Source: Microcaldota archaeon (lineage in GTDB: Archaea; Micrarchaeota; Micrarchaeia; Burarchaeales; JAKAKT01). From it: DNA of 42,362 bases. Positions within the stretch are counted from its first letter, which is position 1. Each line of letters starts with the position of its first letter. The position numbers and the translations under genes were made by a program. The notes under the pieces were generated by a model, which was not told the DNA's origin, did not search any database, and saw only the letters and a list, made by a program, of their open reading frames with translations. Below, one piece after another: positions 3,951-21,932 of this stretch. Location: positions 1-42,362 of the forward strand of contig JAKAKT010000030.1 in NCBI GenBank assembly GCA_021813385.1, written 5' to 3'.

Positions 3951-4796
3951 ATGCCAAACTACGGATACTCGTACAAGGAAACAAGCGCAAAGTTTGCCAA
4001 GGCGCAGGCCCACGACATAGACGCGTCGTTCAAGGACCTTGGCGCCGTCTGCGATGCAATCAGGCGCAAGACTACTGACGAGGCTCTCGCGCTTCTTGAG
4101 GAAGTTTCCGAAGGGACGACCCCAATACTCTACAGGAAGCACAACAAGCACCTCGGCCACAGGCACGAGCTCGGCGGCAAGAAGGGGAGATACCCGAAGA
4201 AATCCGCGAAGATTGTCCTCACGCTCCTAAAAAACGCGATAGCGAATGCAGCCTACAAGGGGATGGGAGACGACCTCGTGGTCAAGCACGCTTGCGCGAA
4301 CAAGCAGTTGATTCTTCCCAGAATGGCACCGAAGGGGACAAGCAGGAGGTCAAATTACGAAACAGCGATAATCGAAATCGTCCTCGAGGAGTCGCCAGAG
4401 GCGGTGAACTCCTTCGGCAAGCTGAAAGCCAAAGCGAAAGCGGCGCTCTCGAAAGCGGACAAGGACAAGCTCGTTAGCGAAGAGTCGAAGAGGCTTACTG
4501 CGCACCTCACAAGCGTCATAAAGAAGAGGGCGCAGGAGAAGAAGGAAGAGAAGAAAAAAGAGGAAGAAGAGAAGAAAAATGGCTCTCACGAACACAAGCA
4601 CGAGGGAGAGGGCCATTCACACGAAGGGCACGAACATGACCACGCCCACGAGGGCCACGAACATGCCCATGAGCACAAAGAGGAGGAGCATACCCACGAA
4701 CACCCACACGAGCACAAGCACGAAACAGAGAATCACACTCACGAGCACAAGGAGGGCACTCCTGCCAACACTCGCACTGAAAGAATGAAAAAGTGA
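3951..4796 (+). CDS. rpl22: 50S ribosomal protein L22 (uL22) with a histidine-rich tail
   Basis: Residues 1-155 are a normal archaeal L22: an rRNA-binding fold whose long beta hairpin lines the exit tunnel, with the hairpin region seen at LPRMAPKGTSRRSNYETAI. After this the protein continues to 281 residues. There is a Lys/Ala-rich helix (157-195), a Lys/Glu run (195-210), and then a tail at about 213-266 with 22 histidines in alternating His-Glu, His-Ala and His-Lys steps. The family is usually about 150-190 residues, so the tail is an addition. It is in frame up to the stop, which overlaps the next gene only by the alternative GTG 4793. Runs of this kind bind divalent metals such as Zn, Ni or Cu in other proteins; here that role is inference. 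Confidence 0.94.
   Translation: MPNYGYSYKETSAKFAKAQAHDIDASFKDLGAVCDAIRRKTTDEALALLEEVSEGTTPILYRKHNKHLGHRHELGGKKGRYPKKSAKIVLTLLKNAIANAAYKGMGDDLVVKHACANKQLILPRMAPKGTSRRSNYETAIIEIVLEESPEAVNSFGKLKAKAKAALSKADKDKLVSEESKRLTAHLTSVIKKRAQEKKEEKKKEEEEKKNGSHEHKHEGEGHSHEGHEHDHAHEGHEHAHEHKEEEHTHEHPHEHKHETENHTHEHKEGTPANTRTERMKK
4583..4752 (+). repeat. Low-complexity CAC/GAG-rich tract encoding the His tail of L22
   Basis: An imperfect tandem array of short units reading CACGAG, CATGAG, CACGAA and CACAAG. The codon choice at His varies (CAC and CAT), so this is not a pure recent microsatellite, which suggests that the amino acid pattern has been kept for some time. Confidence 0.75.
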
Positions 4797-4804
4797 GATT
4801 TGAA

Positions 4805-5545
4805 ATGGATTGGGGGAATGGAATATTGGCAATTGAACGAAAATTCATCGAGGATTCCATAAACAGGTACCGGGTAGCGGTGTTCCTTGAGAAAGAGCTC
4901 GACAGGGCAGGTTTCTCCCACGTCGACATACAGAGGACCCCAATGGTTACGAGGATTGCGGTTTCAGTCACGAATCCGGGCCGCGTTATTGGCAAGAGAG
5001 GAAAAACCATAAACGACCTCACAACTGCGGTCCAGAAAGAATTCCGGATAGACAACCCGCAAATAAGTGTGGTAGAAGTTCCGACAGTGGAGCTCGAGCC
5101 CAGGCTCATGGCGAAAAAGGCCGTGAAAATGATTGAAATGGGCAAGAACATCCGAAGGATTCTTCACGCAACGCTCAAGATGATAATGGACGCCGGGGCT
5201 CTCGGCGCCGAGATAATCGCAAGCGGGAAGATTGCCGCGAAGGGAGGAAGGTCCAAGAGGCTTCGGGTCTCTGCAGGATATCTCCCGAAAGCAGGCGAGC
5301 CCTCAAGGCTTGTGAAAATCGCGTCGATAACCGCTTACCCCAAATCGGGGGCAATCGGGGTCGTAGTGAAAATAGTCCCGCCAGGGACGAAATTCCCGGA
5401 CAAGAAGGAGGCGAAGAAGATTGAGCTTCCAAGGGTGATAAGCTCAGCGGAACTTCCAGAGGCAATCGATGCCCCCGCGAAAGCCGCGGAAATCCGCCCC
5501 CCAAAGGCCGATGTGAATGAGGCCGAGGCGGAAAAGAAAGAGTAG
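4805..5545 (+). CDS. rps3: 30S ribosomal protein S3 (uS3)
   Basis: A small-subunit protein at the mRNA entry channel. The KH domain is visible with the GKRG signature at VIGKRGKTINDL, followed by the S3 C-terminal domain to about residue 195 and a low-complexity Pro/Glu/Ala tail. Starts are ambiguous. GTG 4793 overlaps the L22 stop, and ATG 4805 gives 246 residues. TTG 4826, preceded by a GGGGG run, would give MAIERKF, the form in which this family normally begins. I list ATG 4805; the TTG start is a serious alternative. Confidence 0.93.
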   Translation: MDWGNGILAIERKFIEDSINRYRVAVFLEKELDRAGFSHVDIQRTPMVTRIAVSVTNPGRVIGKRGKTINDLTTAVQKEFRIDNPQISVVEVPTVELEPRLMAKKAVKMIEMGKNIRRILHATLKMIMDAGALGAEIIASGKIAAKGGRSKRLRVSAGYLPKAGEPSRLVKIASITAYPKSGAIGVVVKIVPPGTKFPDKKEAKKIELPRVISSAELPEAIDAPAKAAEIRPPKADVNEAEAEKKE

Positions 5546-7202: not shown

Positions 7203-7571
7203 ATGCCGACGAAGCCAAGGACTCAGAGAAAGGCCATGTACGAGGCGAAGCTCCACGAGAAGCACGCGCTTGTTGCCGTCCACCTCTCCAAGGAGCTAAA
7301 AGCAAAGCTCAATACGAAGGCACGGAGCCTGCCGGTCAGGAAGGGCGACAGGGTCAAGATAATGCGAGGCTCTCATGCTGGCAAGACCGGGAAGATATCC
7401 GAAGTCGACCTCAAGAGTTCGCTGGTGTTCATAGAAGGGATAGTAACAAGGAAGGCAAAGGGAGGGGAAGTCCTCGTCTCAATCAGGCCTTCAAAGCTTC
7501 TCATGCTGGATGGAGATTTTAACGACAATGAACGGAAAGCCCTCCTCGCGAGGAAGAAGGGCAAGGGTTAG
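7203..7571 (+). CDS. rpl24: 50S ribosomal protein L24 (uL24)
   Basis: An assembly-initiator protein with a KOW motif. The KOW region is VRKGDRVKIMRGSHAGKTGKI at about residues 43-63. RTQRKAMYEAKLHEKHALVAVHLS is the archaeal N-terminal part. ATG 7197 is also in frame, but GAGGTCATGATT places ATG 7203 at normal spacing, giving 122 residues with the typical basic end. Confidence 0.95.
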   Translation: MPTKPRTQRKAMYEAKLHEKHALVAVHLSKELKAKLNTKARSLPVRKGDRVKIMRGSHAGKTGKISEVDLKSSLVFIEGIVTRKAKGGEVLVSIRPSKLLMLDGDFNDNERKALLARKKGKG

Positions 7572-7582
7572 GGGTTGGTTTA

Positions 7583-8269
7583 ATGGCTAAGAAAGGAGGC
7601 TCATCTCACTTGAAAAGGATTTCATCCTTCAGGGCGCTTAAAGTGCCGAAGAAAACGCATGAGTGGCTGATAAAGGCAAGCCCGGGCCCGCACAAGCTCG
7701 AGCTTTCGATTCCCATAGGAGTCCTCGTGCGCGACTACCTGGGACTAGCCGCAAGCTCTCGCGAGATGAAATTCATCTTGAACCATGGCGAAGTATTCGT
7801 TGATGGGAGAAAAATCAAGAGCCCGGACTTCCCAGTTGGGCTGATGGATGTTGTTACGCTTCCGAAAGTGGGCAAGGGATATAGGATAGGCATAGACAGC
7901 CACGAGAGGCTCACGCTCAACGAGGTAACCCTTGAAGAGGCGAAGGCGAAGCTCTGCAGGATTCGGAGCAAGGTCAAGGTAAGGAAAGGGAAGATAATGC
8001 TCGGGTTGCACGACGGAAAAACCGTCCCTGGCGACAGCAATTACGGGGTCGGCGATTCGGTGAAGCTCACGCTTCCGGAGAACAAGATAGAACGGCTGCT
8101 GAAGCTCGCCCCGGGTGCCCACTGCCTCATCATCAAAGGCAAGCATGCCGGCAAAATCTGCACACTCAAGGAGCTCAGGATGGTAGGGAACAGGAAATAC
8201 GAGGCCCACGTGGATGGCGAGGGTGGGGCATTCATCACATCGAAGCCTTGCCTGTTCGTGATTGAGTAA
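7583..8269 (+). CDS. rps4e: 30S ribosomal protein S4e (eS4)
   Basis: A small-subunit protein specific to archaea and eukaryotes. Domains in order are a basic N-terminus (HLKRISSFRAL), an S4-like RNA-binding part (REMKFILNHGEVFVDGRKIKSP), the S4e central domain (VGKGYRIGID and after), and a C-terminal KOW region (CLIIKGKHAGKICTLKEL). Its 228 residues are normal. GGTTGGTTTA stands before the ATG. Confidence 0.96.
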   Translation: MAKKGGSSHLKRISSFRALKVPKKTHEWLIKASPGPHKLELSIPIGVLVRDYLGLAASSREMKFILNHGEVFVDGRKIKSPDFPVGLMDVVTLPKVGKGYRIGIDSHERLTLNEVTLEEAKAKLCRIRSKVKVRKGKIMLGLHDGKTVPGDSNYGVGDSVKLTLPENKIERLLKLAPGAHCLIIKGKHAGKICTLKELRMVGNRKYEAHVDGEGGAFITSKPCLFVIE

Positions 8270-18069: not shown

Positions 18070-18681
18070 ATGAAACAAAAGAAAACAGACAAAGAAGTTC
18101 CAAAAGACCTCAAGGTCGAAGGAAAGGAGATTAAGGGCATCGTAAGGATTACCGGAAAGGATTTGCGAGGGGACCTCTCCCTTAAGAGGGCTCTCACGAA
18201 AATAAAGGGAGTCGGGATTAGGACGTCTGAAATAATGTCAGAAGTAGTCCTGAAGGAGCTCTCGCTTCCGGATTCAACCGTGGTCGGCTCGCTTTCCGAA
18301 GAGCAGATTGAAAAAGTTGAGCACATGCTCTCGAATCCAGTAAAGTTCGGGGTACCGAGCTACATGACGAACAGGCGGAAGGACAACGAGACAGGGCAGG
18401 ACAGGCACATGACGGGCACAGATCTCACATTTACGGTAAAGCAAGACATTGAGAAAGAGAAGCTATTGAACACGTGGAGGGGCTATAGGCACGCCTACGG
18501 CCAGAAAGTCCGCGGGCAAAGGACGAGGAGCACTGGAAGGACAGGGATGTCCGTAGGAGTCATAAGAAAGTCCATCGCGATGAAGGCAGGAGGGCCTGCT
18601 GCCGCAGCCCCGGGTGCTGCCGCTGCAGCCACCGCCGCTGCCCCGGCAAAGAAAGAGGAGACAAAAACTGATAAAAAGTGA
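18070..18681 (+). CDS. rps13: 30S ribosomal protein S13 (uS13)
   Basis: A small-subunit head protein contacting P-site tRNA and S19. The helix-two-turns-helix region KRALTKIKGVGIRTSEIMSEVVLKE and the basic end YRHAYGQKVRGQRTRSTGRTGMSVGVIRK are conserved. The first 20 residues are a Lys-rich extension. The last 35 are an Ala/Pro-rich tail ending in Lys/Glu, not part of the usual fold. Total 203 residues, against about 150-170 in the family. It is the first gene of the alpha-type cluster. Confidence 0.95.
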   Translation: MKQKKTDKEVPKDLKVEGKEIKGIVRITGKDLRGDLSLKRALTKIKGVGIRTSEIMSEVVLKELSLPDSTVVGSLSEEQIEKVEHMLSNPVKFGVPSYMTNRRKDNETGQDRHMTGTDLTFTVKQDIEKEKLLNTWRGYRHAYGQKVRGQRTRSTGRTGMSVGVIRKSIAMKAGGPAAAAPGAAAAATAAAPAKKEETKTDKK

Positions 18682-19220: not shown

Positions 19221-19781
19221 ATGAGCAAGAATGAGAAGGATGAACCTGTGAACGAGGAACCGAAAGCCGAGAAGGCGCAGGCTCCAGCCCAGGCACCAGA
19301 ACCAAAACCAGCCCCGGTTCAGGCTCCTGCACAACAAGCCCAAGCGCCCGAAGAGCCATCGGACAAGGCAACTATTGTGAAAAAGATTGTTCGTGGCGAA
19401 ACGAGATGGGGAGTTGCCCACATATTCTCCTCGAAAAACAACACCATAATAACGATTACTGATTTGAGCGGGGCTGAGACAATCGCAAAGGCAAGCGGCG
19501 GGATGATTGTGAAAGCCGATAGGGAAGAAGGCTCGCCCTACGCCGCCATGCAGGCTGCTTTCAAGGCAGCCGACCAAGCGAAGCTAAGGGGGATAACGTC
19601 GATTCACATTCGCATAAGGGCCCCAGGGGGCCATGGGGCGAAGACTCCGGGCCCGGGAGCGCAGGCAGTTGTCAGGGCTCTTGCGAGGTCAGGCTTGAGG
19701 ATAGGTAAAATCGAGGACGTGACCCCCATACCGACCGACACCACAAAGAGGCCGGGCGGAAGGAGGGGCCGCAGGGTGTGA
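19221..19781 (+). CDS. rps11: 30S ribosomal protein S11 (uS11)
   Basis: A platform protein near the E site. From about residue 58 it is a standard S11: [51 protein letters not shown], then [33 protein letters not shown] and the conserved end [19 protein letters not shown]. The first 50 residues are a Pro/Ala/Gln-rich extension absent from most members. It lies between S4 and RpoD as usual. Confidence 0.95.
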
Positions 19782-21003: not shown

Positions 21004-21429
21004 ATGAAAATTATTGATGCCAAGGGATGCGTTCTGGGGAGGATAGGCGCACGCGTTGCGAAGATGCTTCTTTCGGGAGAGGAAGTTGCTCTCGTTAACG
21101 CCGGCGAAGCGATAATTTCCGGCAATCCTCAGGCAACGACCGAGAAATATGCCGCAAGAAGAAGCGCAAAGAACAAAGCGAATCCAGAGCACTCTCCGCA
21201 CTGGCCGAGGAGGCCAGATTTGCTCGTCAGGAGGATGCTGAGAGGCATGCTTCCATACAGGACGACGAGGGGCAGGACTGCTTTCAAGAGGCTCAAGGTC
21301 TACTCGAGCCAGCCTGCTGAATTCGGGCGGGCTGAAGTCCTCGAGGGCACAAGCTCTTCGAGACTCCGGACGCGCTTCATCACGATCAATGAACTGTGCA
21401 AGAACCTAGGGTTCAGGGTGGGTAAATGA
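21004..21429 (+). CDS. rpl13: 50S ribosomal protein L13 (uL13)
   Basis: An early-assembly large-subunit protein. MKIIDAKGCVLGRIGARVAKMLLSGEEVALVNAGEAIISGN and the later RRMLRGMLPYRTTRGRTAFKRLKVY are typical. AGGAGTGATGTT before ATG 21004 sets the start (141 residues); GTG 20977 overlaps the end of L18e and would add nine residues. Its stop overlaps the S9 start (ATGA). Confidence 0.95.
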   Translation: MKIIDAKGCVLGRIGARVAKMLLSGEEVALVNAGEAIISGNPQATTEKYAARRSAKNKANPEHSPHWPRRPDLLVRRMLRGMLPYRTTRGRTAFKRLKVYSSQPAEFGRAEVLEGTSSSRLRTRFITINELCKNLGFRVGK

Positions 21430-21932
21430 AGAAGAAAACAGAAAAGACTGAAAAGGCCCCGGAGAAGGACCTCGAAGCCGGTGCTGCTCCAGCCCCGAAA
21501 AAGAAGGGAGATAGGAAGGGCGGAAAAAAGAAAGAAAAGATCTTCCACGCGAGGGGAAAAAGGAAAGAGAGCATTGCGAGGGCGACGATTACTGAAGGCA
21601 AGGGGATTGTCAGGGTAAACAAGATGCTCATAGATTTCGTCGAGCCAGAAAGGCTGCGCGATATCGTGATGGAGCCTATCCAGCTCGCAGGTGATATCGC
21701 TTCGAACATCGACATCTCTGTGAATGTCAAGGGCGGAGGCGTTGTAGGACAGATGCAGGCTGCCCGGGTTTCCATTGCGAAGGCCCTGGTGAAGCACTCT
21801 GGGAGCGAGGAGCTAAAGCAGAGGATGCTCGCACTCGACAGGAATATGCTTGTCGAGGACAAGAGGCGCGTCGAGCCGAAGAAATACAAGGGCCCGAAAG
21901 CGAGAGCAAGATACCAGAAATCATACAGATGA
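21426..21932 (+). CDS. rps9: 30S ribosomal protein S9 (uS9)
   Basis: A small-subunit head protein whose C-terminal tail reaches P-site tRNA. It has the family start of the fold ([24 protein letters not shown]), the core ([26 protein letters not shown]) and the basic end [14 protein letters not shown]. About 38 residues of Lys/Pro/Ala-rich sequence precede the fold, so the protein has 168 residues instead of about 130. Confidence 0.95.

Follow-up and report, generated by a model that had tools for sequence, protein, structure and literature searches.

A uL22 ribosomal protein with a histidine-rich C-terminal tail in Micrarchaeota: a candidate ribosome-tethered metal buffer

In the genome of a Microcaldota archaeon, the gene at positions 3951-4796 (+ strand) of the window, by which we mean the whole 42,362-nucleotide stretch of DNA that was analysed, encodes a genuine uL22 ribosomal protein with a C-terminal extension, which consists of a long Lys/Glu-rich segment followed by a disordered, HxH-rich tail. 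Judging from its composition, this tail may bind Zn/Ni-type ions and act as a metal buffer tethered to the ribosome, the likeliest of the readings considered, to which we assign a probability of roughly 0.45. Ribosomal storage of zinc, His-rich tails that bind metal and low-complexity tails on ribosomal proteins have each been described before. In the literature searched, which covers subscription journals thinly, we found no report of a His-rich tail on uL22 that recurs in one class. Should the tail prove to bind metal, evolution would several times have given a metal-binding arm to a ribosomal protein that is essential and universal, and would have done so in archaea that have small genomes and little metal-transport machinery. 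The protein offers a concrete, cheaply testable case both for what fast-evolving low-complexity ribosomal tails do and for ribosomes as metal stores outside bacteria.

Results

The uL22 gene is present as a single copy in this genome (1.78 Mb in 105 contigs, estimated to be 93% complete) and encodes 281 amino acids. Its product scored above the cut-offs of PF00237 (61.5 bits; cut-off 28) and TIGR01038, uL22_arch_euk (101.2 bits; cut-off 79.85), and reached 122 of the 137 needed for a stricter profile, NF003260. Alignment with 28 Micrarchaeota uL22 sequences and the order predicted by AlphaFold2 delimited a core of residues 1-148 (3951-4394, + strand), most of which was ordered, although confidence was low in some loops, residues 71-74 among them. 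The best Foldseek matches of the predicted core were the uL22 proteins of Methanosarcina and Haloarcula from solved ribosomes (probability 1.00, TM by target ~0.8). A sequence-only reading of this DNA had described a normal L22 fold, and the profiles, AlphaFold2 and Foldseek all agree with it. Core fold and operon place are shared with archaeal and eukaryotic uL22 (TIGR01038; Haloarcula L22P, 1ffk/1s72; eukaryotic RPL17/L17e), and eukaryotic uL22 has a short charged C-terminal extension as well. In contrast, the solved archaeal chains that were matched are mostly ~150-155 residues long and nearly tail-less, and none among those listed carries a 130-residue His-rich tail.

The operon is of the normal archaeal type, with the order uL3-uL4-uL23-uL2-uS19-uL22-uS3-uL29-eIF1-Rpp29-uS17-uL14-uL24, so that uL22 lies between uS19 and uS3 as part of an S10-type operon. 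The uS3 gene (4805-5545, + strand; likely start ATG 4805, with the listed open reading frame beginning at GTG 4793) follows directly downstream, and the operon sets the limit of the tail, which does not extend into a neighbouring gene. The sequence comes from a single metagenome-type genome in 105 contigs with an estimated contamination of 3.7%, which leaves some room for the tail being an artefact of assembly or annotation. This origin is disfavoured, and we consider it extremely improbable, since the reading frame continues unbroken through core, helix and tail, the archaeal operon around it is intact and lies on a contig of 42 kb, the codon use of uL22 resembles that of the neighbouring genes, and comparable tails are present in independent genomes.

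The extension beyond the 148-residue core comprises 133 C-terminal residues of low complexity. Its first part, residues 149-211 (4395-4583, + strand), is rich in Lys and Glu (17 K, 2 R, 10 E and 2 D in 63 residues) and was predicted by AlphaFold2 to form a single long alpha helix, with a mean pLDDT of 66-93 per 10-residue block, in keeping with the Lys/Glu helix that had been proposed to follow the fold. Because the input alignment of 19 sequences contained tails in only six rows and covered part of the helix with the window's row only, this prediction draws partly on sequence composition. If straight, a 63-residue helix would be ~95 angstrom long.

The second part is the His-rich tail, residues 213-266 (4587-4748, + strand), in which 22 His residues occur with HxH spacing. 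AlphaFold2 predicted disorder over residues 212-281, with pLDDT values below 50 over residues 211-250 and 253-270. The 22 histidines that the sequence-only reading had placed at 4583-4752 were counted and located correctly: this stretch, residues 209-268, contains exactly 22 His codons (17 CAC and 5 CAT), and its 60 residues include 17 Glu in addition to the 22 His. Most of the steps from one His to the next (16/21) are of the i,i+2 type. Over its full length the protein contains 29 His; the tail has no Cys, and the last 13 residues, GTPANTRTERMKK (4755-4793, + strand), are free of His. The description of a His-Glu/His-Ala tail of a metal-associated kind also fits, both with the disorder predicted by AlphaFold2 and with a survey of prokaryotic proteins, in which His-rich low-complexity regions were statistically linked with Co/Ni-binding proteins and those of ribosomal proteins were normally of Ala/Glu/Lys (PMC6821194).

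Against the His frequency of the window (1.5%), the binomial probability of a tail this rich in His is ~1e-26. Tandem Repeats Finder detected short-period arrays in the Lys/Ala- and Lys/Glu-coding stretches of the uL22 gene only, and no tandem DNA array in the His-coding stretch. CAC and CAT are used 17:5 in the tail versus 125:59 in the other genes of the window (Fisher P 0.64, computed with 17:6; the result is unchanged). This mixture had previously been taken as a sign of selection; the usage is ordinary for the genome and argues against a recent repeat expansion, not for selection. With no tandem array and with codons mixed as in the genome, a recent DNA repeat expansion of the His part was rejected. 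An RNA-level role of the tail-coding stretch was likewise rejected, as its structure was not strong (z -1.4; 18 of 200 shuffles folded equally well).

The RNA result also bears on regulatory sensing of metal, in which metal bound to the tail would change translation or the level at which the uL22-uS3 operon is expressed. The location of the gene in the main ribosomal protein operon and the presence of a NikR_C-type regulator in the genome are compatible with such a role, but we consider it very improbable, given that no feature links the tail with regulation and the RNA encoding the tail is not unusually structured.

The HxHxH pattern occurs at 81+72 sites in the genome, and no other His-rich protein was found in the 18 regions inspected among the HxHxH matches listed. 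The open frames inspected that bear it were short, apparently off-frame stretches, together with one phosphoesterase-like HFHEH active-site motif. A denser pattern, HxHxHxxH, was present at 6 other sites in the genome, counted irrespective of reading frame. Elsewhere in the window, the genes at 18070-18681, 19221-19781 and 21426-21932, apparently uS13, uS11 and uS9, encode Ala/Pro/Lys/Glu-rich low-complexity ends without dense His.

We surveyed the uL22 tails of 138 species of the class Micrarchaeia. Tail length had a median of 76.5 residues (interquartile range 55-98); 115 of the 138 tails were at least 40 residues long and 10 had fewer than 10 residues. Their pooled composition was 24% K, 15% E, 14% A and 1.5% H. 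When the operons were compared (8 kb neighbourhoods in 80 named genomes), with tail length taken as the residues that follow the part matching the window's protein and with the window's own tail included in the twelve non-uL22 queries, the median tail length was 73.5 residues for uL22 and no more than 7 for each of the other twelve operon proteins. uL22 is thus the tail hotspot of the operon in Micrarchaeia, and its tail is a fast-evolving, low-complexity appendage.

Dense His tails, with at least 15 His, were found in 3 of the 138 species, which belong to three different families: the window's species (22 His; family f1), G033 (19 His; f16), whose tail contains HEHNHETGSAHEHPHSHEGHSHEGEG..., and G112 (23 His; f18, Sv217). 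A search of the class with the window's tail alone recovered only the tail itself and one marginal match (E 0.007), so that G033 and G112 have tails which resemble it in kind but for which this search detected no homology. A tree of the uL22 core placed three separate changes to a dense His tail; it is based on few columns and has weak deep support, and the GTDB family codes agree with it. Dense His tails therefore apparently arose separately, by convergence, at least three times. The His tail at locus L037, from a different family, shares 24/25 nucleotides with window positions 4614-4638 (peptide HSHEGHEH). This identity probably reflects shared codons by chance; less probably, it may reflect an exchange of tail DNA.

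Among close relatives, the nearest, G001 of the same family, has a core that is 57% identical and a 74-residue tail without His. Two other genomes of the window's order, G005 and G007, have short His versions, EEHVHDGE and HEGHAHAHEGEG, after a similar Lys/Glu stretch. Five Fermentimicrarchaeum-type genomes of the order, to which Candidatus Fermentimicrarchaeum limneticum (CP058998.1; L092) belongs according to GTDB, have no uL22 tail. The His tail is thus lineage-specific and labile, and not a trait of the phylum. A search of L22 homologues of the phylum had been proposed as a check on the tail, and its outcome is mixed: His tails do recur in other Micrarchaeota, and they are dense in only the 3 of 138 species. 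Absence of the tail from close relatives, which had been named as an observation that would count against the proposal, is largely what we found.

These observations give weight to a view of the tail as a charged and disordered appendage of a generic kind. It could serve solubility, crowding or attachment to RNA, to the membrane or to factors at the exit site; His would have replaced some of the usual Lys, Glu and Ala under weak constraint, and any metal binding would be incidental. A hypervariable Lys/Glu/Ala tail is present on nearly all Micrarchaeia uL22, the His counts are graded from 0 through 3-10 up to 23, and close relatives lack His; we regard this view as a real, if lesser, possibility. 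It does not readily explain the dense, regular HxH run, which is unexpected from a background of 1.5% His, the presence of dense tails in three families, or the conservation of a His motif at the protein level in one genus.

That genus is g35 (family f18), in which the uL22 tail is 74 to 135 residues long. The motif PHxH[GA]E, usually PHQHGE, forms the very end of ten g35 tails (L189, L193, L194, L197, L199, L206, L209, L213, L229 and L232), often with EHKHEAEK upstream. Identity within the genus is 72% over the last 10 residues, compared with 42% over the rest of the tail and 69% over the core. The motif's two His are encoded five times by CAT and five times by CAC, and four codons are used for its Gly; this synonymous variation indicates that conservation acts on the protein. 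That the PHQHGE end is forced by an overlapping uS3 start was rejected, because the stop codon comes after the motif and the motif's codons vary synonymously. PHxH[GA]E is therefore likely, on sequence grounds, to be a functional short motif in g35. The sign of selection on a His pattern, which had been claimed for the window's tail, thus comes from this genus.

In the g35 genome STA_33, uL24 (L110, ~7224-7724, + strand) ends in a tail of 55 residues, 8 of them His (EHKHDVHEGAVHTHEH). In this genome uL22 and uL24 both bear His tails. Like uL22, its neighbour, uL24 is a protein of the exit rim.

We also considered the metal genes of the genomes that carry His tails. No match to a ZIP importer or to a CDF exporter was found in the window's genome. 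On another of its contigs (C93; L288, 3975-6927), genes for a ZnuA-family binding protein, an ATPase and an ABC-3 permease form a ZnuABC-type set on the - strand, and a small NikR_C-domain protein is encoded divergently on the + strand. The latter scores below the NikR equivalog cut-offs, and its metal is uncertain. The ZnuA of the window's genome is apparently without a His-rich loop, and the ZnuA of G001 has a short form of it. Among the 17 genomes checked, the ABC-3 permease occurred in the window's genome and G001 only, and in none of the 15 other Micrarchaeia. G001 (L289) has the same NikR_C/ZnuABC arrangement though its uL22 tail is free of His, and the other two His-tailed genomes, G033 and G112, carry ZIP importers but lack the ABC-3 permease. 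The metal genes thus provide context and not a correlation. A CDF exporter was absent from 3/3 His-tailed genomes and from 7/14 others, and a correlation of the His tail with loss of this exporter was dropped, as the cases are too few.

Discussion

In other ribosomes, uL22 lies near the nascent-chain exit, on the exit rim of the large subunit. Because the tail is attached to a core ribosomal protein, its simplest role would be that of a ribosome-tethered buffer. According to this proposal, the extension would be anchored by the uL22 core to the large subunit, close to the exit, the helix, reaching up to ~95 angstrom if straight, would hold the tail off the ribosome surface, and the His/Glu tail would bind several ions of the Zn2+/Ni2+/Co2+ type with moderate affinity. 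The tail could then act as a buffer of, or a sink for, metal. The metal import detected in this genome is of the ZnuABC type, and no ZIP or CDF protein was found. The intact frame with its typical codon use, the predicted helix and disordered tail, the dominance of i,i+2 His spacing, the recurrence of dense tails in G033 and G112, the g35 motif and the uL24 tail of L110 count in favor of this role, and the lack of a consistent link of His tails with metal genes, in the three His-tailed genomes and G001, counts against it.

Alternatively, the tail might not store Zn/Ni/Fe-group ions in bulk but deliver them locally, to metalloproteins during their synthesis or to metal-dependent enzymes at the exit site, for example methionine aminopeptidase. 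The position of uL22 at the exit rim of solved ribosomes, the reach that the predicted helix would give and the His tails on two rim proteins in the L110 genome would suit such delivery. The distribution of the tail is sporadic, however, and most Micrarchaeia do without it, so that we judge local delivery to be unlikely. A broader proposal, that dedicated, convergent His-rich metal-binding arms on exit-rim proteins (uL22 and, in one genome, uL24) serve as the metal buffer of the cell or metallate emerging proteins, is somewhat doubtful. If it is true, exit-rim arms would give ribosomes another chemistry for storing metal, beside that of the Cys-type zinc ribosomal proteins.

The tails of SlyD and HypB and the loops of ZIP and ZnuA are other His-rich sequences that bind metal. 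Hpn and Hpn-2 of Helicobacter (PMC4671568) resemble the window's tail in their dense His and acidic residues and in their disorder, and the known cases bind multiple ions. All of these are metallochaperones, transporters or free storage proteins and none is a core ribosomal protein, and the likeness of the uL22 tail to them is one of composition and disorder. Low-complexity tails of prokaryotic ribosomal proteins (PMC6821194) are also C-terminal and surface-facing and include a Lys/Glu-rich part. However, the archaeal cases described there are chiefly Ala/Glu/Lys-rich and commonest in S3, S24, L10 and L12, and His-rich L22 tails are not mentioned.

The holding of metal by ribosomal proteins is an idea shared with the ribosomal zinc reservoir formed by L31 and L36 and their zinc-free paralogues (PMC4424684, PMC9825181). 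L31 and L36 hold zinc in folded Cys sites and release it when the paralogue is exchanged, whereas uL22 is an essential, single-copy protein that has no paralogue, and its disordered His tail contains no Cys.

The capacity of a ribosome-tethered buffer would depend on the number of ribosomes. The sequence-only reading had assumed thousands of copies of the tail per cell, which is doubtful: for ARMAN-type Micrarchaeota, a published count is 92 ribosomes per cell, at a cell volume of 0.03 cubic micrometre (Comolli et al., values tabulated in PMC6888934). From these tabulated values, the tail would be present at ~5 micromolar and, at an assumed 5-7 ions per tail, would provide ~25-35 micromolar metal sites. 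Such a capacity would be modest beside the total zinc of E. coli, quoted as ~0.2 mM (PMC4424684), which counts against the proposed role, but it would still be useful as a buffer.
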